Made by a program: the position numbers and the translations under genes | Shown: one piece after another, positions 3,583 through 16,325 of the stretch | How positions within the stretch are numbered: the stretch's first letter is position 1 | Layout of the letters: each line of letters begins with the position of its first letter | IMG/VR virus record: IMGVR_UViG_3300031675_000645 | Span: 1-24,474 of that record | Direction: 5' to 3' (one strand) | DNA: 24,474 nt | From: a virus | Notes under the pieces: model-generated | Databases searched by the model: none | Seen by the model: the letters and a program-made list of their open reading frames with translations, nothing else | What the model was told of the DNA's origin: nothing

Positions 3583-3884
3583 TGAATAACCTTGCAACTA
3601 TAATAAGTGAATACGGTTTTCCTGTTGTCGCCTGCGTTGGGTTAGGCTATTTTATTTACTATGTTTGGAATTACATGAATACACATGTTAAGCCTGAACT
3701 AGGTAAAATGCATACGGCATTAATTAAAGTTATTGACCAAACAAGAATGTTAGATCAAGACATGATAAGACTACAACAAAAAGTTAATGTAGTGTTAGAA
3801 TACCGTGCCAAAGAAAAAATAATCGAAGAGCACGAAGAAGAAGAGGCAGTTGAAGAACTAAAGTCTCTCAAGGATAAAAAATGA
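3582..3884 (+). CDS. Small membrane/coiled-coil protein, YvrJ-like, copy 2
   Basis: The 100-aa product begins MNNLATIISEYGFPVVACVG, with one membrane span (about residues 10-33), then a long amphipathic helix and a Glu/Lys-rich tail ending KSLKDKK. It is paralogous to the preceding 98-aa protein over the membrane span and the start of the helix. It overlaps csgF by four bases (ATGA), implying translational coupling. YvrJ-like or holin-like are the best structural descriptions. Association with CsgF/CsgG secretion is inferred from position only. Confidence 0.78.
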   Translation: MNNLATIISEYGFPVVACVGLGYFIYYVWNYMNTHVKPELGKMHTALIKVIDQTRMLDQDMIRLQQKVNVVLEYRAKEKIIEEHEEEEAVEELKSLKDKK

Positions 3885-4378
3885 AAATTACAGGAACGCA
3901 TTTAGGCGTATTGGTAGGCATATTTTATTTCGCAAGTCAAGGCGTAATGGCAGACCAATTAACGCACAAATTTAAAAACCCTTCCTTTAGTGGTATAGGG
4001 ACTGGAGCTCATTACTTGACTATTGAGAATCAGGAAAAAAGTAGAAAAGATAAAATTAAAGACGATATTGAGGCGGCACTAAGAGCGGCAGACAGATTAG
4101 AGGATAACAGCACAATTAATAAATTTATTAGAAATTTGGAGAGTAGAATCTATTCACAAATCTCTAAAGGATTAGTCGATAGTATGTTTTGTAATCCAGG
4201 TGAAGAAGTATCTTGTACCAACTCAAGAGAAGGAGCATTTGAAATTGAAGGCAGTAGTGTTTCTTATATAGTAAAAATGATAGATGGTATAGAGTACATC
4301 GTGATGACTATTGTAGATCCCGATGGAACTATTACTGAAATTGAGATTCCAATTGGAATCGGTACGTTAGGCGGTTAA
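3881..4378 (+). CDS. csgF: CsgF-like curli assembly factor
   Basis: A cleavable signal peptide (MKITGTHLGVLVGIFYFASQ, cleavage probably after VMA) is followed by LTHKFKNPSFSG. This matches the conserved mature CsgF N-terminus (LTFxFRNPxFGG) that inserts into the CsgG pore. A helical region follows (IYSQISKGLVDSMF), then a C-terminal beta region ending DPDGTITEIEIPIGIG, in the same order as CsgF. At 165 aa it is somewhat longer than E. coli CsgF. In the curli (type VIII) system CsgF lines the outer-membrane secretion channel and couples secretion to fibre nucleation. Placement directly before csgG supports the call. It is coupled to the preceding gene by ATGA. A CysX-Cys pair near residues 104-111 is not typical of the enterobacterial protein. 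Confidence 0.88.
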   Translation: MKITGTHLGVLVGIFYFASQGVMADQLTHKFKNPSFSGIGTGAHYLTIENQEKSRKDKIKDDIEAALRAADRLEDNSTINKFIRNLESRIYSQISKGLVDSMFCNPGEEVSCTNSREGAFEIEGSSVSYIVKMIDGIEYIVMTIVDPDGTITEIEIPIGIGTLGG

Positions 4379-4379
4379 A

Positions 4380-5363
4380 GTGAGGCAGAGTTTTTTAGCA
4401 ATTATATTTGCGTTATTGTTTACTGGGTGTGCGAGTATCTCCATCCCCGGTGATAAAGTCTGCATGACTGACTTCTTGGAATGTATAGAAGAACCAAAGT
4501 TTGTAGAACTACCCACGTATAAAAAATTACGAAACTTACCACCAGCAGAAAAAATGCCAGTGGTAGCAGTTTATAAATTTGACGACTTAACTGGACAACG
4601 GTTAAGTAGTGATGGATCGGCTTCATTTAGCACAGCCGTAACACAAGGTGCTAAAGATTTATTAATAGATTCACTTAAAGCGGCTGGAGCCAAAGATAAT
4701 CCGAAAGGTACATGGTTCCGAGTTGTTGAAAGAGGATTAGGACTTGACAATTTGGTAAGGGAAAGGCAGATTGTTCGTAGCACACGCGAACAGTATGAGA
4801 CTGAAACCGAACCAGCACAGGCAGTCCAACCATTATTATTTGCAGGAATGATATTAGAAGGTGGTATTGTAGGATACGACACTAATGTTGAGACTGGCGG
4901 TAATGGCGCAAGATATCTAGGTATAGGGACAACAAACCAATATCGTAGAGATAGTGTTGTTATATCACTTCGTGCAGTAAGCACACTAACTGGTGAAGTG
5001 ATACTCAACGTACAGACATACAAAACCATTTTAAGCACTGGACAAGCAGGAGACATATTTAAATTCTTAGATATGGACACGAAACTACTAGAGCTAGAGA
5101 GTGGTATGACAGAAAACGAAAGTGTAACGTGGGCAGTACGTTCGGCAATTGAAGCCGCGGTATTGGCACTTATACAACAAGGCAGTGAAAGGGGTTATTG
5201 GAAAATAGTCTATCCAGAAGGGTGGGATCAACAGGAGTTAAAACCTGGTGAACAAGCGACTTGGATGCAAATAGACATTAACGAAGACGACCTTAAAGCT
5301 GATAAGAAGCTCTGGCAAAAAATGTTGCTAGAGAAATCTAATGGAGAAAAAAATGAAGACTAG
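4380..5363 (+). CDS. csgG: CsgG-family curli secretion pore lipoprotein
   Basis: A GTG start one base after csgF gives MRQSFLAIIFALLFTGC, a lipoprotein signal with lipobox LFTGC. The next part carries CsgG hallmarks: PVVAVYKFDDLTGQR, then STAVTQGAKDLLIDSLKAAG, then WFRVVERGLGLDNLVRERQI, and a later TGEVILNVQTYKTI strand region. CsgG forms the nonameric outer-membrane channel that exports curli subunits. At 327 aa it is about 50 residues longer than E. coli CsgG, with a charged C-terminal tail (WDQQELKPGEQ through SNGEKNED). The last 11 bases overlap the following curlin gene, whose Shine-Dalgarno lies inside this gene. Confidence 0.93.
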   Translation: MRQSFLAIIFALLFTGCASISIPGDKVCMTDFLECIEEPKFVELPTYKKLRNLPPAEKMPVVAVYKFDDLTGQRLSSDGSASFSTAVTQGAKDLLIDSLKAAGAKDNPKGTWFRVVERGLGLDNLVRERQIVRSTREQYETETEPAQAVQPLLFAGMILEGGIVGYDTNVETGGNGARYLGIGTTNQYRRDSVVISLRAVSTLTGEVILNVQTYKTILSTGQAGDIFKFLDMDTKLLELESGMTENESVTWAVRSAIEAAVLALIQQGSERGYWKIVYPEGWDQQELKPGEQATWMQIDINEDDLKADKKLWQKMLLEKSNGEKNED

Positions 5364-6171
5364 AAATTTTATGAATAAAATTGCAATCAATGTCTTCGGA
5401 GTTATGGGTATTATCCTAGCGACTATGGCACCATCATTGGCGGCAGACGAAAATGAGGTATTTATAGACCAAACAGGTGATAACTTAATTCTAACAATAT
5501 TACAGGCTGGTAATAGCAATAAGGTTTCAGGTGATGCATCACAAGGTAGCGATTTAGTTATCAGTGGTTCAAACTTGATTATTGATATTATTCAAGATGG
5601 TAATGGTAACGAAATATTTGGTGCGTGGACTGGTAATGGTTCCGGGTCGACTGTTTGGGACTTTTATTTCTATGGCGACAACAATGACTTAGATGCAAAT
5701 ATCGGGCAAACCGCTTCTGCAAATAGTGTTGATATGCTATGGAATATACAAGGTGACACAAACGTATTTGACATGGACTTAGGCGGAAACTACTCAGCAG
5801 ATAACTTGAACATGGATTTAACAATCCTTGGAAGTAGAAATAACTTTAAAGACAGTTTTACAAATACTAGAACTTGGGGTGGAACCGCAGGAACTAATTG
5901 GAATTCAACTGTAAATACAGCAATGTCTGGAATTAAAGTTGACTCTACTAGTGCTACATGGGAAATGAACATAACAGGCGACGATAATGCTATCGCAACT
6001 AACCAAACTGGTAATGCTAACCATTACTTAAAATTTGTATTAGTTGGCTCTGATGGTGATTTCCAATTTGAGCAGTCCATGGCGGCAACATGTTCACCAG
6101 TATGTCCTGGTAAAATTGACGTTGATATAGACAGTGAAAATGCATCGGTATCGATTAGACAAAAGGATTAA
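5353..6171 (+). CDS. Curlin-like fibre subunit 1
   Basis: I prefer the ATG at 5353 because GGAG at 5343-5346 sits at correct spacing; an upstream in-frame ATG at 5341 has no RBS. The product is 272 aa with a signal peptide (cleavage near PSLA/ADEN, residue 30). The mature protein has curlin-type repeats in which Gln, Gly and Asn recur: FIDQTGDNLILTILQAGNSN, DIIQDGNGNEIFG, GDNNDLDANIGQ, IQGDTNVFDMDLGG, GDDNAIATNQTGNAN. This is the strand-turn pattern of CsgA/CsgB amyloid repeats. It has only two Cys (CSPVC). It follows csgG directly and shares its first repeat with the second curlin-like protein at 7332. Major versus minor subunit cannot be decided. Confidence 0.85.
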   Translation: MKTRNFMNKIAINVFGVMGIILATMAPSLAADENEVFIDQTGDNLILTILQAGNSNKVSGDASQGSDLVISGSNLIIDIIQDGNGNEIFGAWTGNGSGSTVWDFYFYGDNNDLDANIGQTASANSVDMLWNIQGDTNVFDMDLGGNYSADNLNMDLTILGSRNNFKDSFTNTRTWGGTAGTNWNSTVNTAMSGIKVDSTSATWEMNITGDDNAIATNQTGNANHYLKFVLVGSDGDFQFEQSMAATCSPVCPGKIDVDIDSENASVSIRQKD

Positions 6172-7330
6172 ACTTTTTCTAACAGCATTATTACTGTTTA
6201 GTCCAATCACAGTTATATCCGCCGATGTAAAAATCGGCGGTGTATACGAGCAGAGCGGAACACCAGGTGCTATCAGTCGAAAGTCTGGAGACACATTGAT
6301 TGCAGAACTAGACACAGACATAGTTAGTTTGGACGAAGTAGAAACCTTAAATGGTAGGTTAGTACTAAAGTTCATAGACGACACAAAAGTAAGTTTGACA
6401 GAACATACTTACATGGAAATAAACGAATACGTTTATGATCCAGATCCAAGTAAAAGTAGAATGGCTTTAAACTTTGTACAAGGTACAGCCAGATTTGCTA
6501 CAGGTGGACTGGGTTTAGTAGCAAAGGAGAATATAACTATTCAAACGCCTACTGCTACTATTGGTATTAGAGGAACAGACTTTACTACAACAGTAGACGA
6601 ATTAGGAAGAAGTTTGGTTATACTATTACCAGACTCGGGTTGTACCGATGGGGTTAGACTTGAGGAAGGTTGTAGACCAAGTGGTAGTATAACTATTACT
6701 AATGCTGGTGGCGTTCAACTATTAACAGAAGCCTTTCAGGCTGTTATGGTTAGTACATATGAACAAGCACCAACTAATCCTGTAGTACTTGCGGACTTGG
6801 ATCTAAACATGATAGATAATATGTTTATTGTATCAGAACCGCAACAGATTACAGAAGCAGTTGAGGAACAACAGGAAGAATTAAAAGGCGATGCCGGCTT
6901 GTTAGACTTTAACGGATTAGATGCAAGTGCATTAGAACAAGACATGCTTACTGAAACAGACGAAGATTTACAGTTTAGTGAGCTAGATATGAATTTCTTA
7001 GATGTAGATTTTTTAGTGGATCTATTAGAAGTTGTAGAAGATGTAAGTACAGGCATTAATAAGAAAAGAAGAGCAGACTCAAAAGGCGGAGACCTAGGAG
7101 TTGATAAAATTACAGGAACTGCTTTAGGGCTAGATCCTAACACACAGGTTAATACTTTGAGCTTGGACGGAAAGATTTATTTCTTTAGGCAAGTTACAAA
7201 TACAGCAAGTATACGAATTGGATCCGGTACTAGTGCTAGAATAGAAATATATGATAGTAATTTAAAAGACACTATTATTTGTCTTAATGATTGTGAAGGC
7301 ACAACTATAATAATTACACAGGAAGATTAA
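6140..7330 (+). CDS. FecR-domain periplasmic protein
   Basis: The likely start is the ATG at 6140 (a GTG two codons earlier is possible); it overlaps the curlin gene by 32 bases. A basic n-region and hydrophobic core give a signal peptide ending near VISA (residue 28). Residues about 35-175 form a FecR domain: GAISRKSGDTLIAELDTDI, then LNGRLVLKFIDDTKVSL, then IQTPTATIGIRGTDF. A long acidic linker follows, with Glu/Asp/Leu-rich helices (about 230-310). The last 60 residues (TASIRIGSGTSARIEIYDSN through TIIITQED) look like a beta-rich tail similar in texture to the flanking curlins. FecR domains act in periplasmic sensing and often neighbour CHASE2 cyclases; one lies 7 kb downstream. Anchoring or sensing of the curli fibre is an inference. 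It is unusual as a phage gene. Confidence 0.85.
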   Translation: MHRYRLDKRIKLFLTALLLFSPITVISADVKIGGVYEQSGTPGAISRKSGDTLIAELDTDIVSLDEVETLNGRLVLKFIDDTKVSLTEHTYMEINEYVYDPDPSKSRMALNFVQGTARFATGGLGLVAKENITIQTPTATIGIRGTDFTTTVDELGRSLVILLPDSGCTDGVRLEEGCRPSGSITITNAGGVQLLTEAFQAVMVSTYEQAPTNPVVLADLDLNMIDNMFIVSEPQQITEAVEEQQEELKGDAGLLDFNGLDASALEQDMLTETDEDLQFSELDMNFLDVDFLVDLLEVVEDVSTGINKKRRADSKGGDLGVDKITGTALGLDPNTQVNTLSLDGKIYFFRQVTNTASIRIGSGTSARIEIYDSNLKDTIICLNDCEGTTIIITQED

Positions 7331-7331
7331 A

Positions 7332-8237
7332 ATGAGAACTTTAGGAATAATACAAGTATTTGTTTTGCTGTCAATGGCAACACAACTTTTTGCGGAAGAA
7401 GGGCATAACCATGTTCATATAGACCAGACGGGTGATAACTTAGTAATGGATATTTTGCAAAGCGGTAAAGACCAACACATAGACTTAGACTTAGGGTTAC
7501 AATATGGTAACGTTGACAATCTTACTATGTGGATCGGGCAACTTGGACAAGACAACGAAGTAGAATTTTCTGTATCAGGAGATGGTAATACAGTTAAAAT
7601 AAAACAAGAAGGCAGAAACAACACAGCAGGTTTTACCAGCACATGGGGTAAAGTAAATTGTAACAATGCAACATTTTGTGGAGACGTTGATGGTGTAGAT
7701 AATGAAATTTATGTAGACCAATATTGTAGTTTAGGTTCTGGTTGTGCGGCTACAGAAACAGGATTCCATGTTTGGGGAGACACTAACGAAATACGTTGGG
7801 GTCAAGGAGCACATTTAAGTAGTGTAACAGATACTACATTTTCACACTCTACAGCAAACAAAGGCGGACATAAAGCAATAATAGACTTACACGGAGACAG
7901 AAATAAAGTTGTTGGCTATCAGACTAATGGTTGGGGAACTACAACTTCCGATGATGGACATACAGCAGATGTTTGGCTATATTCAGATGATAATACAGTT
8001 TGGTCTCAGCAAAAACATAATGCAGGAAAAACTTTAACTATAAAAACATACGTGGACAACAATACGATAAATGTTGCACAACAAGGCGGCGGCGCCCATA
8101 CTGCCACGATACTATTGTATGGAACTCAGCCTACAACATTGAACCTCACACAAATAAATGATATCACAAAGTCATACAGCATTAATCAAAATTGCGTAAC
8201 TTCCGGCGGTTGTAATATAAACGTAACCCAACAGTAA
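7332..8237 (+). CDS. Curlin-like fibre subunit 2
   Basis: The ATG is two bases after the FecR gene stop (TAAAATG). A signal peptide (MRTLGIIQVFVLLSMATQLFA) precedes a 280-residue mature protein. It starts with HIDQTGDNLVMDILQSG, nearly the same repeat as subunit 1. Further repeats include IGQLGQDNEVEF, VSGDGNTVKIKQEGRNN, LHGDRNKVVGYQ and VAQQGGGAHTATI. It ends NINVTQQ. The recurring Q-x-G-x-x-N spacing is curlin-like. It differs from subunit 1 in carrying several Cys in pairs (CNNATFC, CSLGSGC, CVTSGGC), which suggests disulfides that would require export to the periplasm. It may be a nucleator paired with subunit 1. It is the last gene of the operon; no terminator is visible after it. Confidence 0.85.
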   Translation: MRTLGIIQVFVLLSMATQLFAEEGHNHVHIDQTGDNLVMDILQSGKDQHIDLDLGLQYGNVDNLTMWIGQLGQDNEVEFSVSGDGNTVKIKQEGRNNTAGFTSTWGKVNCNNATFCGDVDGVDNEIYVDQYCSLGSGCAATETGFHVWGDTNEIRWGQGAHLSSVTDTTFSHSTANKGGHKAIIDLHGDRNKVVGYQTNGWGTTTSDDGHTADVWLYSDDNTVWSQQKHNAGKTLTIKTYVDNNTINVAQQGGGAHTATILLYGTQPTTLNLTQINDITKSYSINQNCVTSGGCNINVTQQ

Positions 8238-8785: not shown

Positions 8786-8793
8786 GATAAATA
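8786..8793 (+). promoter_or_regulatory. T4-like late promoter (GATAAATA) for the lipoprotein gene
   Basis: GATAAATATAAC lies 50 nt before the lipoprotein start in an intergenic gap, with the TGTTAC palindrome just upstream. Confidence 0.6.
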
Positions 8794-8842
8794 TAACTGT
8801 ACTTTGCCAGATGGGCAAGTACCTTATATATAAGGAGATGAA

Positions 8843-9124
8843 ATGAAAAATTTACTTTCAGTCTTTGGTTTAATCGTATGTTTTGGAATCACAAGTTGTG
8901 CCTCAGTTGGAGGGGCTTGGAATGCCGGAACAGAGATTGTTACAGGAACAGTTGACTCTGTTGTCGGCGGAGCCGCAACATTGGCAGTTGCTATTACTGA
9001 TGATGCAAGAAACATTGCAGACGTAACTATTGAAACAGCACAAGGTGTTGTTAAAACAGTTGCAGAAAATGTAGACAAGCAAACTGATGAACTACAGAAG
9101 AAAGACACGTCTGAGGGAAAGTAA
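8843..9124 (+). CDS. Small lipoprotein, zero-frame product of 93 aa
   Basis: A strong Shine-Dalgarno (AAGGAG) precedes the ATG. The signal sequence MKNLLSVFGLIVCFGITSC has a lipobox (ITSC, Cys19). Ser rather than Asp follows in the +2 region (CAS), consistent with outer-membrane sorting by enterobacterial rules. The mature part is a Val/Ala/Thr-rich amphipathic stretch (residues 30-75), then a charged helix (VDKQTDELQKKDTSEGK). The stop TAA follows directly after a GGGAAAG slippery heptamer, and the -1 frame stays open for 41 more residues; see the frameshift entries. Function unknown. It lies between the curli operon and the adhesin operon, so a role at the cell envelope is plausible. Confidence 0.85.
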   Translation: MKNLLSVFGLIVCFGITSCASVGGAWNAGTEIVTGTVDSVVGGAATLAVAITDDARNIADVTIETAQGVVKTVAENVDKQTDELQKKDTSEGK

Positions 9125-9161
9125 CAAGTTTTTCGTTTTTCAAAAAGAAGAACGAAGAACT
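9115..9161 (+). promoter_or_regulatory. Candidate programmed -1 ribosomal frameshift signal
   Basis: Three parts are visible. The slippery heptamer G GGA AAG is at 9115-9121, in the right phase relative to the lipoprotein frame; the zero-frame TAA follows at once (9122-9124). A 5-nt spacer covers 9122-9126. Then comes a 15-bp stem: AGTTTTTCGTTTTTC at 9127-9141 pairs with GAAGAACGAAGAACT at 9147-9161, with two G-U pairs and an AAAAA loop. GGGAAAG is the heptamer used by the lambda G/GT tail gene frameshift. Heptamer, spacer and stem all fit the canonical -1 layout. Confidence 0.65.
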
Positions 9162-9246
9162 AACTGCAAAAGAACTAATAGCACTTTTTAAAGAGAACCA
9201 AAAAAAATTAGAAGTGTATTGTGCAGAACACCCACAGGAATGTTAG
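9121..9246 (+). CDS. -1 frame extension of the lipoprotein (41 aa), product by frameshift
   Basis: This frame has no ATG, GTG or TTG at its beginning and an in-frame TGA at 9112, so it can hardly be read on its own; GTG first appears late, near residue 32. Reading by -1 slippage at 9115-9121 continues the lipoprotein with VTSFSFFKKKNEELTAKELI and on to VYCAEHPQEC before TAG (9244-9246). The total is 134 aa. The added segment is a basic then amphipathic helix with two Cys, protein-like in composition. It ends 15 nt before the terminator stem. Alternatives are a sequencing or assembly indel in a single 134-aa gene, or decay of that gene. Confidence 0.55.
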   Translation, partial: VTSFSFFKKKNEELTAKELIALFKENQKKLEVYCAEHPQEC

Positions 9247-9261
9247 AACATTAAAAAAGAG

Positions 9262-9285
9262 GCACACTTCGGTGTGCTTTTTTTT
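9262..9285 (+). terminator. Rho-independent terminator with TTCG tetraloop
   Basis: GCACAC-TTCG-GTGTGC (9262-9277) is followed by eight T (9278-9285). It is the first of two tandem terminators after the lipoprotein unit. Confidence 0.93.
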
Positions 9286-9456: not shown

Positions 9457-10818
9457 ATGAAGATAAGAATATTGTCTGCGATAGCCATGATTAGTTCGTT
9501 CGGACTTTTCACGTTACCGGCTCAGGCGGACCAAACTGGTACATGTACTGCTGGTACACAGTATTGTGAGGAGTCAACTACAACGACCAACAATACTACA
9601 ACGACAACTGGTACGAATACGAATAATAATACGAATACCAATACGTCGACAAATACCAATAACAATACCAATGCGAACACCAATAATAATACTTCGACGA
9701 ATACGAATACGTCGACGAACACAAACACCAACAATAACACGAATGCGAACACAAACACCAACACCAACAATAACACGAATGCCAATACGAATACCAATAA
9801 TAATACTAGTACCAATACTTCGACTAATACCAATGCGAATACGAATACTAATAATAATACTTCGACGGCTTCGAATACGAACAATAACACGAACTCGAAT
9901 ACGAATAATAATACTTCGACGAATACTAATACGAACAATAATACGAATAATAATACTTCGACTTCGACGAATACGAATAATAACACCAACAATAATACGA
10001 ACAATACCACGAGTAACAATACTAACACCAACAACAGTAATGTGAATAGTACTTCGAATAATACAAATACTAACAACTCGAATATTGACCAGAATGTTAA
10101 TTCAAATTCAACTGCTACTAATACCAATAACAATAACAACAATACGACCTCTAATAATACGAACGTCAACAAGAATGAAAGTACTTCTAAAAGTGAAAGT
10201 GATGTGAACACTAATAATAAAAGTGAAAGTAACAACACTAATAATAACAATAACAAGAACGAAAACATTAACAAAACTGACCAAACTATTAAACAAGAGA
10301 TTACAACTAAGGCTCCTCCGGCTAGTGCGATTGCACCAAGCATAGGATCAAGTTATTCTCAAGACTTATGTACAACAGGTATATCAGGTGCTTTCCAAGG
10401 ACAAGTATTTGGTATTTCAGGTGGTAAGTCAGTAAGAGATATGAACTGTGAAAGAATGAAACTTAGTAAAACAATTTATGATATGGGTATGAAAGTTGCG
10501 GCTGTTAGTTTAATGTGTCAAGATGCTAGAGTTTTCAAAGCAATGGAAATGGCTGGAACACCTTGTCCTTATATGGGAGCAATTGGTGATGCGGCTTCTA
10601 AACAATGGGAAGATAATTCTACACAAAGAGCAGACTACAAAAAAGGCTGGTTTACGAAGAAAGATAAAAATTTAAAATCTTCAGCACCAATCGACGGTCA
10701 AGTAATGAGGTCAGGCGATGAATATGACGCATTTATGAAACAATGTAGAAAGAAAAAAGGTAAAGGCAAAAAGAAAACAAAGAGCCAATGTGAGAGTGAA
10801 TGGGAATCAAATCTTTAA
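9457..10818 (+). CDS. Exported Asn/Thr-repeat protein with conserved Cys-containing C-terminal domain
   Basis: GGAG precedes the ATG (9457). A signal peptide is cleaved near AQA/DQ (residue 24). Residues about 41-275 are almost only Asn, Thr and Ser in NTNNNTST-type runs. This is a low-complexity tract that could be a flexible stalk or an N/T-rich aggregation-prone segment. A folded C-terminal part (about 300-453) follows: DLCTTGISGAFQGQVFGISG, then MNCERMKLSKTIYDMGMKVA, a Cys in SLMCQDA, then AGTPCPYMG. That pattern recalls a small domain seen in other phage proteins, but I cannot name it. The C-terminus is Lys-rich (KKKGKGKKKTKSQ). It overlaps the next gene by 19 nt. An exported surface or virion-associated protein is likely. 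Confidence 0.82.
   Translation: MKIRILSAIAMISSFGLFTLPAQADQTGTCTAGTQYCEESTTTTNNTTTTTGTNTNNNTNTNTSTNTNNNTNANTNNNTSTNTNTSTNTNTNNNTNANTNTNTNNNTNANTNTNNNTSTNTSTNTNANTNTNNNTSTASNTNNNTNSNTNNNTSTNTNTNNNTNNNTSTSTNTNNNTNNNTNNTTSNNTNTNNSNVNSTSNNTNTNNSNIDQNVNSNSTATNTNNNNNNTTSNNTNVNKNESTSKSESDVNTNNKSESNNTNNNNNKNENINKTDQTIKQEITTKAPPASAIAPSIGSSYSQDLCTTGISGAFQGQVFGISGGKSVRDMNCERMKLSKTIYDMGMKVAAVSLMCQDARVFKAMEMAGTPCPYMGAIGDAASKQWEDNSTQRADYKKGWFTKKDKNLKSSAPIDGQVMRSGDEYDAFMKQCRKKKGKGKKKTKSQCESEWESNL
9577..10290 (+). repeat. Low-complexity Asn/Thr codon repeat tract
   Basis: The tract is a run of AAT/AAC and ACG/ACC/ACT codons with interspersed TCG and GCG. Synonymous codons change irregularly, so exact DNA repeats are short. 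The first two thirds favour ACG and TCG, which are uncommon in the flanking genes; the last third returns to ACT, ACA and AGT. Confidence 0.85.
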
Positions 10819-13800
10819 TAGCAGGACTACTACTTTGCTTAGTACCAACGTTGGTAGAGGCTAACAGTTACTCTACCCCTGGAAATTATCCTCTAAACAA
10901 TCTGCTTACACCATATGAGAATGGTAATGCAGACGGTTCTATACTATGTCAAGGTGCCGCAGATGAAACAGGTTGTAATGCCGCATTTGCTATTGGCTTT
11001 AACTTTGAATGGTATGGAGAAACGTTTACCCATGGATTAATGAGTACTAATGGTTGTTTAAAACTACTGAAGTCGAGTGCATTTAGCAGTAGTGATTACT
11101 GTAGTTATGATATACAACATTTAAGTTCTTCAGTTGGGATGAATGATACACTATTTCCTTTCTGGAGCGATTTAGACTTAGGCACAATATACGATACCCA
11201 AGCACCAAGCCCTAGCACGATGCTGTTTAACAACTCAGGCTCCTTCGCTACATTTGGTTGGTACTACATGCGTGAGTATGGCGTAACAGCAGATACAGAC
11301 CAGTTTGATCCGCAGTATCCAAACGCACATAATACTTTTGAAGTAGTACTTTTAAATCAAAATTGTGCTGATTGTCCTGGTGATGAAACAGATACAAATG
11401 ATGACTATGCTTACTTATATGGTAATTTAGAAATAAATCATTCCAATGTTTTAGTTGGTGAAAAGAAAAGCAGTACCCAACTTAACGAAGCATACTTTTT
11501 TAGTGATAACAGTTATTGTGATACTTGTATAGATCCAAACACAGGACTGCAAGGACGTTACTTGTTTATATGGGACGATTATGACAACGGAACATTAGAA
11601 GGCGGCGCCATGTATGCAGACGGTAATGGAACAGAACCGGCAGAATGTGCCAGCAATGCTCTTTACAGCACAGCCTGTAGTTTATATAGTATAACTTACT
11701 TACAGCAACAATGTGCCGTAGATCCTACATACAGTACAGATTGTAATGGATATTTTTCAGCCTTAGACAAAAAATTTGAAGAAGAACAAGAGTGTTATAA
11801 CGATCCAAACTTACCAGGCTGTGCTGGATTAGGTATTTTTGATGCCGTCTCTCAATATGATTATGCCACAGGAAACATGGGTCCTTATTATAGTCCAAAC
11901 GATTTTGGAGAAATGGACGGTTATGATCCTAACACAGGATTAGTAACACAAAGCGATGGTTCACAAATTAGTATCCAAGGTGATTACTATTCAGACGGAT
12001 ACGATCCTAACGCGGATTACGACAGCATTAATTCAAATACTGGCGATGACTTTTATATGAATCAAGACGGTGTGTATGTTCCTAATCAATATGACCCAAT
12101 GGAAGATGATGATATACAGTACGAATATTTAAATGGTGAACAACAAATGTTAGTTGAGCAAGGTTTAAGTCCGCAAGAAGCAGTACTAATCACAATGGGT
12201 ACGCAAGACATAATAGCACTAGGACATGATCCTAGCATACAATTTCAAGGCAACAATCCAGGCGATTTAGTTATGGATACTATTGGATTAGAAAATTATG
12301 ATTTAGAACTACATGACGAAACTATGTTAAAACAAGCAGAAGAAAATGGATTTGCAAATGGGTTTACAACAAGTGATATTTGGGCAACAGAAGAATACAT
12401 GCTACAAGAAGAACTGTATGACCAACAGTTTGAAGAACAGTATGGCGATGACGCATATGGCTGGTCATCAAAAGATTGGTACGATTATGATGTAAAAGAA
12501 TTTGGACAAGACCAAGTAGATGAGTGGTATGGCAAAGATGTAGTATTTGATGAGCGTGGTAATTTTGAATGGGAGTCTTATAATTATGCATTAGATGACG
12601 AGTACATGATGGAAATATATTACGAAGACGATATGGAATTTGATTTAGCATACGAACAATTCCTGAGCGATGAAATAGACTTACAAAAAGAATGTCCAAC
12701 ATGTGATATAGAAGCATTTTTTGATTTATCAGATGATGAACTAATAGCATTTGAGAACGAAAGAATGTATGAAGAAGAGGCTTACTTTGAATTAGGCCCA
12801 GAAGCAGACATAGAACGTTTTATACAAGAAGAAGGACTTGAAGATTTACTTAGTGAAGATGATTTAGAACAATTTAAAAATGAAGCATACGCAGAGATAG
12901 ACGAAGATTATGAACAAGGTCCTATGATGGACGAACACCACGAAGAAGACGGTCCCACTCATATTGCAGATGCCAGTACCCCACAGTCAAATGTTCAACG
13001 AGAACAAAAACAAGAAAAAGCAGACAAACAGTTTGTAGGTAATGTAGGATCAGGTGTTATGAGTTTAAGTGTTGCAGAGTTTAATATTGACTTTGGTAAC
13101 AGTAATAACTTTGATGATGGTGGAACACAACAACAATTAGAAACAATTATTGCAGGCATTATCGACGATGGTTCGGGTAGTGTTGATGACGGAAGTGGAA
13201 GTATTGACGATGGCAGTTCAAGTGGCAATGACGGTAGTGGAAGTTTTGCACAAGGCAATGACGGAAGTAGCAATAGTTACAGCACCGGAAGTCAAGGTAA
13301 CATGGGTATGCTAACACAAGAAAGCTCAACAGGTGATACGTTCTTGCAAGAACAAGCAGAACAACGTATGGGTCAACAAAGTTTTGATGCTACAGCAAGT
13401 GTAACTGATACAGTTGACACAGGTGCATTTGAAGTTGCACAGAGCTCAGTACAAGCATTCGAACAACAACAAGAAGATACTTTACAGTTTGTAGACAGTT
13501 TTGATGACGGAACAAGCGGTGGAGTTAGTGGAGCAGATATTCAGTTCGAAGATGAACTAACCACAGCATTAAGTAGTGGCACAGGCTTAACAGAATTCCT
13601 AAGCCAGGCACCAGCAGATTACAGCAGGTTTGAAGTTGAAGCACCTACGTTCCAAGAGCAAAGACAATCAGACGCAGTAGAAAGTTTAGCAGATACAATG
13701 GGAGCAACAGTTGCCGCGGCAAACTTAGAAAAAGAATTAGCATCGATACAAGCAGGTAATACTGACGATGCACAATATGGCGACCAAACGATTGCAGTTG

Positions 13801-14012
13801 CTTACATAGGATATACACCAGGCTTTAGTGCTTACACATCACAAATACAACTAGCAGACCAACAAGCATGGTACGGCTCATCACAAGTATATCCAGGACA
13901 AAAAGTTGTAGACAACAAAGCGAGTTTTTACATGATGGCTGGTAACACTCAAGTTAAATTAAAAAAAATGATATACAGCCAATATAAAACATTACAGGAA
14001 CAGGAGAAATAA
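10800..14012 (+). CDS. Large acidic exported adhesin-like protein with NIDO-like N-terminal domain
   Basis: The ATG at 10800 overlaps the previous gene by 19 nt. A signal peptide (MGIKSLIAGLLLCLVPTLVEA) starts this 1070-aa protein. Residues about 30-270 resemble a NIDO/adhesin beta domain: FAIGFNFEWYGETFTHGLMS with TNGCLKL, then LFPFWSDLDLG, then NTFEVVLLNQNC. Paired Cys (CADC, CDTC) suggest disulfides or metal sites. Residues about 330-720 are extremely acidic (Asp, Glu, Tyr) with repeated DGYDPNTG/DGYDPNAD motifs, possibly calcium-binding. A DDGSGSVDDGSGSIDDGSSS linker lies near residues 790-815. The C-terminal 100 residues (GYTPGFSAYTSQIQ, then AWYGSSQVYPGQKVVDN) form a separate unit. A cell-surface or virion adhesin is the best guess; NIDO is recognised by pattern only. 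Confidence 0.8.
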   Translation: MGIKSLIAGLLLCLVPTLVEANSYSTPGNYPLNNLLTPYENGNADGSILCQGAADETGCNAAFAIGFNFEWYGETFTHGLMSTNGCLKLLKSSAFSSSDYCSYDIQHLSSSVGMNDTLFPFWSDLDLGTIYDTQAPSPSTMLFNNSGSFATFGWYYMREYGVTADTDQFDPQYPNAHNTFEVVLLNQNCADCPGDETDTNDDYAYLYGNLEINHSNVLVGEKKSSTQLNEAYFFSDNSYCDTCIDPNTGLQGRYLFIWDDYDNGTLEGGAMYADGNGTEPAECASNALYSTACSLYSITYLQQQCAVDPTYSTDCNGYFSALDKKFEEEQECYNDPNLPGCAGLGIFDAVSQYDYATGNMGPYYSPNDFGEMDGYDPNTGLVTQSDGSQISIQGDYYSDGYDPNADYDSINSNTGDDFYMNQDGVYVPNQYDPMEDDDIQYEYLNGEQQMLVEQGLSPQEAVLITMGTQDIIALGHDPSIQFQGNNPGDLVMDTIGLENYDLELHDETMLKQAEENGFANGFTTSDIWATEEYMLQEELYDQQFEEQYGDDAYGWSSKDWYDYDVKEFGQDQVDEWYGKDVVFDERGNFEWESYNYALDDEYMMEIYYEDDMEFDLAYEQFLSDEIDLQKECPTCDIEAFFDLSDDELIAFENERMYEEEAYFELGPEADIERFIQEEGLEDLLSEDDLEQFKNEAYAEIDEDYEQGPMMDEHHEEDGPTHIADASTPQSNVQREQKQEKADKQFVGNVGSGVMSLSVAEFNIDFGNSNNFDDGGTQQQLETIIAGIIDDGSGSVDDGSGSIDDGSSSGNDGSGSFAQGNDGSSNSYSTGSQGNMGMLTQESSTGDTFLQEQAEQRMGQQSFDATASVTDTVDTGAFEVAQSSVQAFEQQQEDTLQFVDSFDDGTSGGVSGADIQFEDELTTALSSGTGLTEFLSQAPADYSRFEVEAPTFQEQRQSDAVESLADTMGATVAAANLEKELASIQAGNTDDAQYGDQTIAVAYIGYTPGFSAYTSQIQLADQQAWYGSSQVYPGQKVVDNKASFYMMAGNTQVKLKKMIYSQYKTLQEQEK

Positions 14013-14459: not shown

Positions 14460-16325
14460 ATGAAATGGATTTACAGCAAGAGTGCTGTAGCAGTTGCAAT
14501 ATTACTGCTACTAGCCGTGCGAATAGCAGACCCTACAGCATTACAGAGTCTGCGTAGTCAAGTATTTGATAGTTATCAACAGTTTGATACTATTGTGGAT
14601 AGCAACGATGTTGCTATTATAAACATAGGTGAAAAGAGTTTAGACGTATTAGGACAGTATCCTTTTCCTAGAACAACTTATGCACAACTTATACATGATA
14701 TAAGACAAAAGAATCAAGGCATAATAGGATTCACTATTATGTTTCCAGAACAAGACAGATTTGCAGGAGATGAGGTATTTGCATCATGGATAAAAGACAA
14801 CGGAATAGTTTTATCCCAGACCCCAAGTTCAAAAGGGGTGAGGAGTACAGGTCCTCACATTGGTACAGGAACGATAGGCCCTTTACCCGCACAGGACTTT
14901 GTACTAACATGGCCCAACCTAGTAACGAACATAAGCCAACTAGAGACTATGGCGTTTGGTATTGGAGTTAATGCTTCAGCACCACAACCAGACAATCAAA
15001 CAAGAACTTACCCACTAACAATAGGCGTTGAAGGAAAATTATATCCTAGTTTTGCTATTGAGCTATTAAGAGTTAATTCAGGTAAACCAAGTTATATAAT
15101 TAAAACATCTGAAATAGGTGTTAGCGAAATTGCTGTTCCACCTTATGACCCAGTTGTAACACAACCGGATGGAACAGCATATATTAGGTTCAACAACACC
15201 TTTCAAGAAGTTGAATACACAAATGCAGATAGTTTGCCTGACCTAGGTAGCAAATATGTTATAATAGGTGTAACAGCAGAAGGCATTGCTAATCCTGTTC
15301 CAACCCCACGTGGCAACTTGTATTCACAGCAAATACATGCTCATATGCTACAGAATATAATTAATGGTACAAATATACAGCGTAGCCAACTTAGTACCGT
15401 GTATGAGCTTCTATGTGCGTTACTGGGTATGATTCTTATTGCTTTCTGTGTGTATAGAACACCTATATGGTTAACTATACCAATTTCCCTTAGTATCATG
15501 GGTGGATTGGGATGGTTTAGTGTACTAATGTACCAGTCAAAACTGCTATTATTTGATGCAACATTCCCACTACTTGCAACATTTTTAGTGTTTACCCAAG
15601 CAACATTTAACAATTTTTACAAACAATACAAGTTGAGACAACAAATAAAAGCACAATTCGGTACATACATAAGTCCAGAGTATGTAGATATGCTAGTTAA
15701 AGATCCTAGTTTAATGAAGTTGGGCGGTGAAAGAAAAGAAATGAGTTTCTTATTTGCTGACATAGTCGGCTTTACTCCTATATCAGAACAGTATATGAAG
15801 AACGATGACCCTGAGGGATTAGTGGAACTTATCAATACCTTCCTGGATAAGATGACAAATATAGTATTAGCCAACGGTGGAACGATAGATAAGTTCATGG
15901 GAGACTGTGTAATGGCATTCTGGAATGCTCCACTACCTTGTGATAATCATGCCGAGATGGCAGTTAAAACAGCAATAGAAATTGAACTACTTGGCGATGA
16001 ACTAGAAGCAGAAATGGAAGAACGTGGCTTGCCTAGAGTTAAATTTGGTACTGGTGTAAACACAGGCACATGTATTGTGGGTAACATGGGTGCTGAAACT
16101 AGATTAGATTATAGTGTTGTAGGCGATGCTGTAAACTTAGGTGCAAGACTAGAAGCAGAAACTAGGAAGCAAGATACTCCTATTTTAATAAGTGAGTACA
16201 CATATCAGCAGACTACAAACATTCCATGTTCTAAATTGGGCGAAGTTACTGTTAAAGGTAAAGAGGAGCCTGTTAAAATTTATGCTCCGATAATTAATGG
16301 TGAAGTAAGAAAACTTTACAAATAA
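14460..16325 (+). CDS. CHASE2-domain class III adenylate cyclase
   Basis: The 621-aa product has an N-terminal membrane span (about residues 7-25) and an extracytoplasmic CHASE2 sensor domain (about 30-310; VAIINIGEKSLDVLGQYPFP, later YVIIGVTAEGIANPVPTP). Three close spans follow (about 312-385), then a linker (QIKAQFGTYISPEYVDMLV) and a cytoplasmic class III cyclase domain. Catalytic residues are complete: metal Asp434 (FADIVGFT) and Asp482 (DKFMGDCVMAFW), adenine-selecting Lys478 and Asp550 (LDYSVVGDAVNLGARLE), and transition-state Asn559 and Arg563. The Lys/Asp pair predicts ATP to cAMP rather than GTP. The domain order is standard for bacterial CHASE2 cyclases. It is very unusual in a phage. 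It may raise cAMP in response to an envelope signal, perhaps with the FecR protein; that link is inferred. Confidence 0.93.
   Translation: MKWIYSKSAVAVAILLLLAVRIADPTALQSLRSQVFDSYQQFDTIVDSNDVAIINIGEKSLDVLGQYPFPRTTYAQLIHDIRQKNQGIIGFTIMFPEQDRFAGDEVFASWIKDNGIVLSQTPSSKGVRSTGPHIGTGTIGPLPAQDFVLTWPNLVTNISQLETMAFGIGVNASAPQPDNQTRTYPLTIGVEGKLYPSFAIELLRVNSGKPSYIIKTSEIGVSEIAVPPYDPVVTQPDGTAYIRFNNTFQEVEYTNADSLPDLGSKYVIIGVTAEGIANPVPTPRGNLYSQQIHAHMLQNIINGTNIQRSQLSTVYELLCALLGMILIAFCVYRTPIWLTIPISLSIMGGLGWFSVLMYQSKLLLFDATFPLLATFLVFTQATFNNFYKQYKLRQQIKAQFGTYISPEYVDMLVKDPSLMKLGGERKEMSFLFADIVGFTPISEQYMKNDDPEGLVELINTFLDKMTNIVLANGGTIDKFMGDCVMAFWNAPLPCDNHAEMAVKTAIEIELLGDELEAEMEERGLPRVKFGTGVNTGTCIVGNMGAETRLDYSVVGDAVNLGARLEAETRKQDTPILISEYTYQQTTNIPCSKLGEVTVKGKEEPVKIYAPIINGEVRKLYK

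Follow-up and report, generated by a model that had tools for sequence, protein, structure and literature searches.

A putative outer-membrane lipoprotein of marine tailed phages is very probably made in two forms by −1 programmed ribosomal frameshifting

The window analyzed here, 24,474 bases long, is the record of an uncultivated virus. It carries a lipoprotein gene between a curli cluster and the gene of a large N/T-rich secreted protein, and its other genes include a T4-like tail sheath stabiliser and tail fibre genes. The curli-related genes of this myovirus (3881-8237 and 14460-16325) encode CsgF, CsgG, two curlin-repeat proteins, FecR and CHASE2/adenylate cyclase, and its CsgG shares 46% identity with the CsgG of Pelagibacter phage HTVC008M. 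Such phage curli clusters have been described in pelagiphages and in one methylophage (PMC7029224, PMC9599517, PMC9004378), and the words frameshift and lipoprotein are absent from the main texts of these three papers. The secreted N/T-rich protein is of low complexity (9457-10818) and is followed by a 1070-aa secreted protein with no Pfam match (10800-14012). This pair recurs in L035, a contig of another phage type, beside a distant homologue of the lipoprotein. The features of the lipoprotein gene are listed in Table 1.

Table 1. Features of the lipoprotein gene and its flanks in the window.
Feature	Position	Strand	Basis or remark
T4-type late-promoter-like box GATAAATA	8786-8793	+	Pattern match; ATG 57 nt downstream
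Shine-Dalgarno AAGGAGA	8832-8838	+	Sequence
93-aa lipoprotein (short form); lipobox ITSC with Cys19 and Ala at +2	8843-9124	+	ORF; signal peptide by eye
In-phase slippery heptamer G GGA AAG, immediately before the 0-frame stop	9115-9121	+	Sequence; relatives
0-frame stop TAA	9122-9124	+	Forms the 5-nt spacer with 9125-9126
Putative stimulatory stem-loop, 15 bp, 5-nt loop	9127-9161	+	Folding; covariation in relatives
Extension in the −1 frame: 41 aa past the shift, with a linker rich in Lys and Glu, a helix and the Cys pair YC..HP.EC	9115-9246	+	
Intrinsic terminator GCACAC TTCG GTGTGC, then T8	9262-9285 (hairpin 9262-9277)	+	Sequence

The 3′ end of the lipoprotein gene reads GAG GGA AAG TAA, which places GGGAAAG in phase for a double slip. 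The original prediction, made from this sequence, had described a complete frameshift cassette at this point, and its parts were found as described. The heptamer lies directly 5′ of the TAA, the stem with its short loop folds five bases past the heptamer, and the −1 frame (VTSFSFF...HPQEC) stays open for 41 residues and closes at TAG 9244-9246, just ahead of the terminator hairpin. The −1 frame has no start of its own; its only ATG, GTG or TTG codon is a GTG at codon 32 of 41, near its end. The residues across the junction are EGKVTSF(SFFK), and ELTAKELIALFK is a peptide sequence of the extension type. Standard ORF calling overlooks the −1 extension, in the window as elsewhere. Stop-codon readthrough was considered and rejected, as the 0 frame closes 12 codons past the TAA in the window.

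Relatives were collected from IMG/VR with the lipoprotein and alignments of the fused proteins as queries. All of them were uncultivated-virus contigs, and they fell into two large clades. The comparison set comprised the 53 contigs with the core motif VTGTVD and an intact 3′ end. Merging identical entries left 35 distinct sequences of site and extension, representing 31 proteins and, at 60% identity, 9 extension clusters. A homologous −1 frame extension was kept in 53 of 53 contigs. The original prediction had named a relative with one uninterrupted frame as evidence against it, and none was found in this set (0/53). The extension ranged from 40 to 70 amino acids across the marine phage relatives and was closed by a Cys pair in all 9 clusters, typically in the form YC..NP.EC. 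The core of the lipoprotein, which is amphipathic and probably helical, is conserved both in the 53 loci with the extension and in a distant clade without it. By blastn and tblastn, neither the lipoprotein nor the fused protein matched any of the 50,697 phage records of INPHARED, and genome contig scans revealed no bacterial relative of the lipoprotein.

A recent frameshift mutation, an assembly error or gene decay would also yield a split frame, in which case a single original frame would have been broken without any functional shift. The split was found at the same place in every relative, in many independent assemblies. An indel error cannot recur in this way in 53 divergent contigs from many metagenomes, which contradicts the one-base indel raised as an alternative in the original prediction. 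Moreover, both halves are under purifying selection and the site is conserved. The probability of this explanation is therefore negligible.

The dN/dS of the extension, calculated in the −1 frame, was 0.21 in the curli clade (compared to 0.25 for the core), 0.48 in the CCCAAAA clade and 0.17 in a third clade. Variation in the extension was greatest at third codon positions, and this result, together with the dN/dS of 0.21, indicated that the extension evolves as a protein. It could be the product of a separate small gene, translated by reinitiation or from a non-AUG start coupled to the end of lipoprotein translation, as the −1 ORF begins right at the stop codon. In four members of the distant clade (L041, L043, L052, and L053), the lipoprotein stop is in fact followed 2-4 nt later by a distinct ORF in the −1 frame that encodes a small membrane protein and starts with an ATG, possibly an unfused counterpart or a precursor arrangement. 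Against a separate gene, the extensions share no start codon of any type, that of L020 lacks one altogether, and no Shine-Dalgarno sequence stands at a fixed place. The heptamer and the spaced stem would also be superfluous for a start, and we consider this route highly improbable. The distant podovirus-like group to which these four belong (L030-L054), whose proteins are 33-42% identical to that of the window, has neither the slippery site nor the extension and thus serves as a natural negative control.

The slip site itself was not constant. Among the 35 distinct sequences, GGGAAAG occurred in 12, AAAAAAG in 11, CCCAAAA in 7, GGAAAAG in 3, and CCCAAAC and GGGAAAC in 1 each. The expectation that relatives would share the extension together with a conserved GGGAAAG was thus borne out for the extension, while a fixed heptamer was not found. 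A canonical in-phase X XXY YYZ was present in 32 of the 35. The other three form a lineage (L103/L105/L108) with G GAA AAG, which is not a canonical heptamer and keeps only the A AAG slip of the second codon. The distance from the slip site to the 0-frame stop was 0 or 3 nt throughout. The codon preceding GGA was GAG, CCG, GCG or CAG, ending in G without exception, and that preceding CCA was AGC or AAC, ending in C without exception. Counted on the genes of the window, G and C make up 11 and 15% of third-position bases, respectively. The retention of the first base of the site while its codon varies, at a position where G and C are rare, indicated that the site is selected beyond the protein that it encodes. 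G_GGA_AAG and A_AAA_AAG are strongly shift-prone in Escherichia coli, and haloarchaeal tailed viruses use G_GGA_AAC (PMC5009743).

As a background rate, an in-phase XXXYYYZ at the same position was present in 6 of 425 (1.4%) other distinct ORFs of the fetched loci. Three of these six also had a long −1 extension, and all three belong to one homologous gene family, which probably has a real slip site itself. These counts agree with the original prediction that a chance coincidence of the elements is unlikely. The extension might instead be reached by transcriptional slippage, that is, by stuttering of the polymerase and not on the ribosome. Slippage can feed the −1 frame, and the AAAAAAG members contain 6 to 7 consecutive A. 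The 12 distinct GGGAAAG sequences and the CCCAAAA, CCCAAAC and GGGAAAC members have no run above four bases, however, and polymerase slippage needs neither the exact XXXYYYZ phase nor a spaced downstream stem. As most sites contain runs of three to four bases, transcriptional slippage is excluded as the general route, and we regard it as a very unlikely source of the extension.

The stem downstream of the heptamer in the window is AU-rich and contains G-U pairs. The 52 nt after the heptamer had a minimum free energy of −17.4 kcal/mol, with a z of −3.7 and p of 0.005 against 1000 synonymous recodings of the extension. In an anchored scan of 30 representatives, a hairpin was located in 27, with its 5′ arm beginning at +6 to +9 relative to the site (+6 in the window), and no stem was found in L083, L095 and L102. 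A shorter hairpin could be seen by eye in L083. At the slip sites of L095 (1348) and L102 (510), the site and the extension are conserved, and a simple stem was not found at the usual distance. Tested singly with 1000 recodings each, the folding energy was significant in the window and in L008, L023, L026, and L116 (p of 0.004, 0.003, 0.001, and 0.004, respectively), and the support was weak or absent in L007/L013, L012/L015 and several CCCAAAA members. Pooled over 18 representatives, which are divergent but related and hence not fully independent, the Fisher p was about 1e-10. In an alignment of L008, L009, L022, L023, and L026, 98% of the cells of the stem were paired and two pairs were compensated, while slid controls were all far lower. 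Four stem pairs with two-sided changes were present in the alignment of the nearest relatives of the window, and indels that put the 3′ arms out of register left that alignment with a weak consensus energy.

All 17 representatives of the curli clade had an ATAAATA box, 54-64 nt ahead of the start in 16 and 87 nt ahead in L026, and an intrinsic terminator followed the −1 stop in 16 of the 17. Judging by these patterns, the gene is probably a single late transcription unit that includes the extension.

The protein has a signal peptide with a lipobox, as judged by eye. Cys19 was invariant in 32 aligned homologues, and the next residue was A, S, T or G. As there is no Asp at +2, the lipoprotein is probably located in the outer membrane. 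It had no family match in Pfam or PHROGs, and a profile search of the PDB returned chance-level matches only. The AlphaFold model of the short form was poor, a single long helix with a mean pLDDT of 61. In the extension, a helix at residues 18-38 reached a pLDDT of up to 96. The part added in the long form is thus modeled as a charged linker followed by a helix, predicted with confidence, at whose end lies the Cys pair; the two cysteines are probably disulfide-bonded.

The neighbors of the gene differ between relatives. An Rz/Rz1-like spanin pair (PHROGs E 1e-11 to 1e-14) immediately precedes it in L104 and L109, and the distant homologues in L046 and L053 lie near endolysin genes. Together with the curli genes of the window, these neighbors fit a late envelope function, and on this gene context the long form may act in the envelope or in lysis. 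The lipoprotein could itself be an outer-membrane spanin of the Rz1 or PseT.2 type, with the long form as its lytic version. In favor of this, it is an outer-membrane-type lipoprotein with two C-terminal cysteines and, in some relatives, lysis-gene neighbors, like the o-spanin PseT.2 of T4, in which both C-terminal cysteines are essential (PMC6139136). An Rz/Rz1 match was also absent from seven curli-clade contigs, which is weak evidence as these records are fragments. Unlike PseT.2, the lipoprotein matched no spanin family, and in the phages that carry spanins both components are already encoded beside it, as in clade 2, where the adjacent i-spanin has its own o-spanin. With both components present and no profile match, the envelope or lysis context does not make the lipoprotein a spanin, and we think this identity unlikely.

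The original reading of a frameshift cassette is supported by the 53 of 53 split frames, the phased turnover of the site, the −1 coding signature and the stem. We are therefore highly confident, on the basis of the sequences compared, that 8843-9246 is one late-type gene whose product, a probable outer-membrane lipoprotein, would be made in two forms by −1 programmed ribosomal frameshifting. We infer that the slippage takes place on the ribosome with an efficiency at which the majority of ribosomes would terminate at the TAA at 9122 and release the 93-aa short form. Some ribosomes would pause at the slippery G GGA AAG, owing to the stem 5 nt downstream and perhaps to the adjacent stop codon, slip back by one base and read 41 further codons, giving a long form of 134 aa. 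The added tail would be a periplasmic linker and helix capped by the conserved Cys pair, and a minority of long subunits may equip the lipoprotein for additional binding in the envelope, in the late or lysis phase. It is plausible that the frameshift sets a fixed ratio of two envelope proteins, as was originally proposed.

The locus resembles the lambda G/GT genes in the in-phase GGGAAAG, a −1 shift shortly before the first gene ends and the short and long products from one start. Unlike G/GT, it is a single-gene unit with a secreted product, its 0-frame stop abuts the site, the site turns over, and a stem lies downstream. The lipoprotein had no PHROGs or Pfam match that would identify it as a tail assembly chaperone, and its gene is accompanied by curli, spanin or endolysin genes and not by those of a tail chaperone and tape measure. 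The dnaX and insertion-sequence type of site, A AAA AAG with a downstream stem, is shared by about a third of the distinct relatives. The product here is an envelope protein, and the shift lengthens it, whereas the dnaX shift shortens its product. No Shine-Dalgarno-like stimulator upstream of the site was obvious by eye in the lipoprotein gene. The G GAA AAG of L103/L105/L108 recalls Bacillus subtilis cdd (A CGA AAG), with an A AAG slip of the second codon and a C-terminal extension. The cdd frameshift has been described as incidental (PMC5009743), while the extension of the lipoprotein is conserved.

The mechanism would thus be textbook −1 frameshifting with the heptamer of lambda G/GT, and the gene class appears to be new. 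Recoding in tailed phages is known mostly from tail assembly chaperones. The basis of the frameshift predictor PRFect is almost entirely tail chaperones, and a literature search did not find a frameshifted phage lipoprotein; on these grounds we take the gene class as new. More broadly, the chances seem to us evenly balanced that −1 frameshifting has here an undescribed role, conserved widely among marine tailed phages and in a gene that does not serve virion assembly. It would set the ratio of the short form to the Cys-bearing long form of a late lipoprotein of the outer membrane that takes part in remodelling the host envelope or in lysis, and its slippery site would repeatedly have been swapped for other functional ones. 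The frameshift is kept down to about 30-45% protein identity, which suggests that the two envelope isoforms matter to these phages. Breaking the slip site or fusing the frames would offer a handle on a late function of uncultivated marine viruses, and the exchange of slippery sequences under a fixed phase is a natural record of the heptamers that function in these hosts.

A second gene in the fetched loci (L108:7611-8312, minus strand; L103:4397-4882; L102:4151-4480) ends in CAAAGTTTTTTTTA with a run of eight T. It is followed by a conserved continuation of 66-67 aa that is open in the −1 frame. We take this gene to resemble T4 gp26, and the continuation is perhaps gp51-like. Here, marine T4-like phages probably have a second fusion made by frameshifting or slippage.
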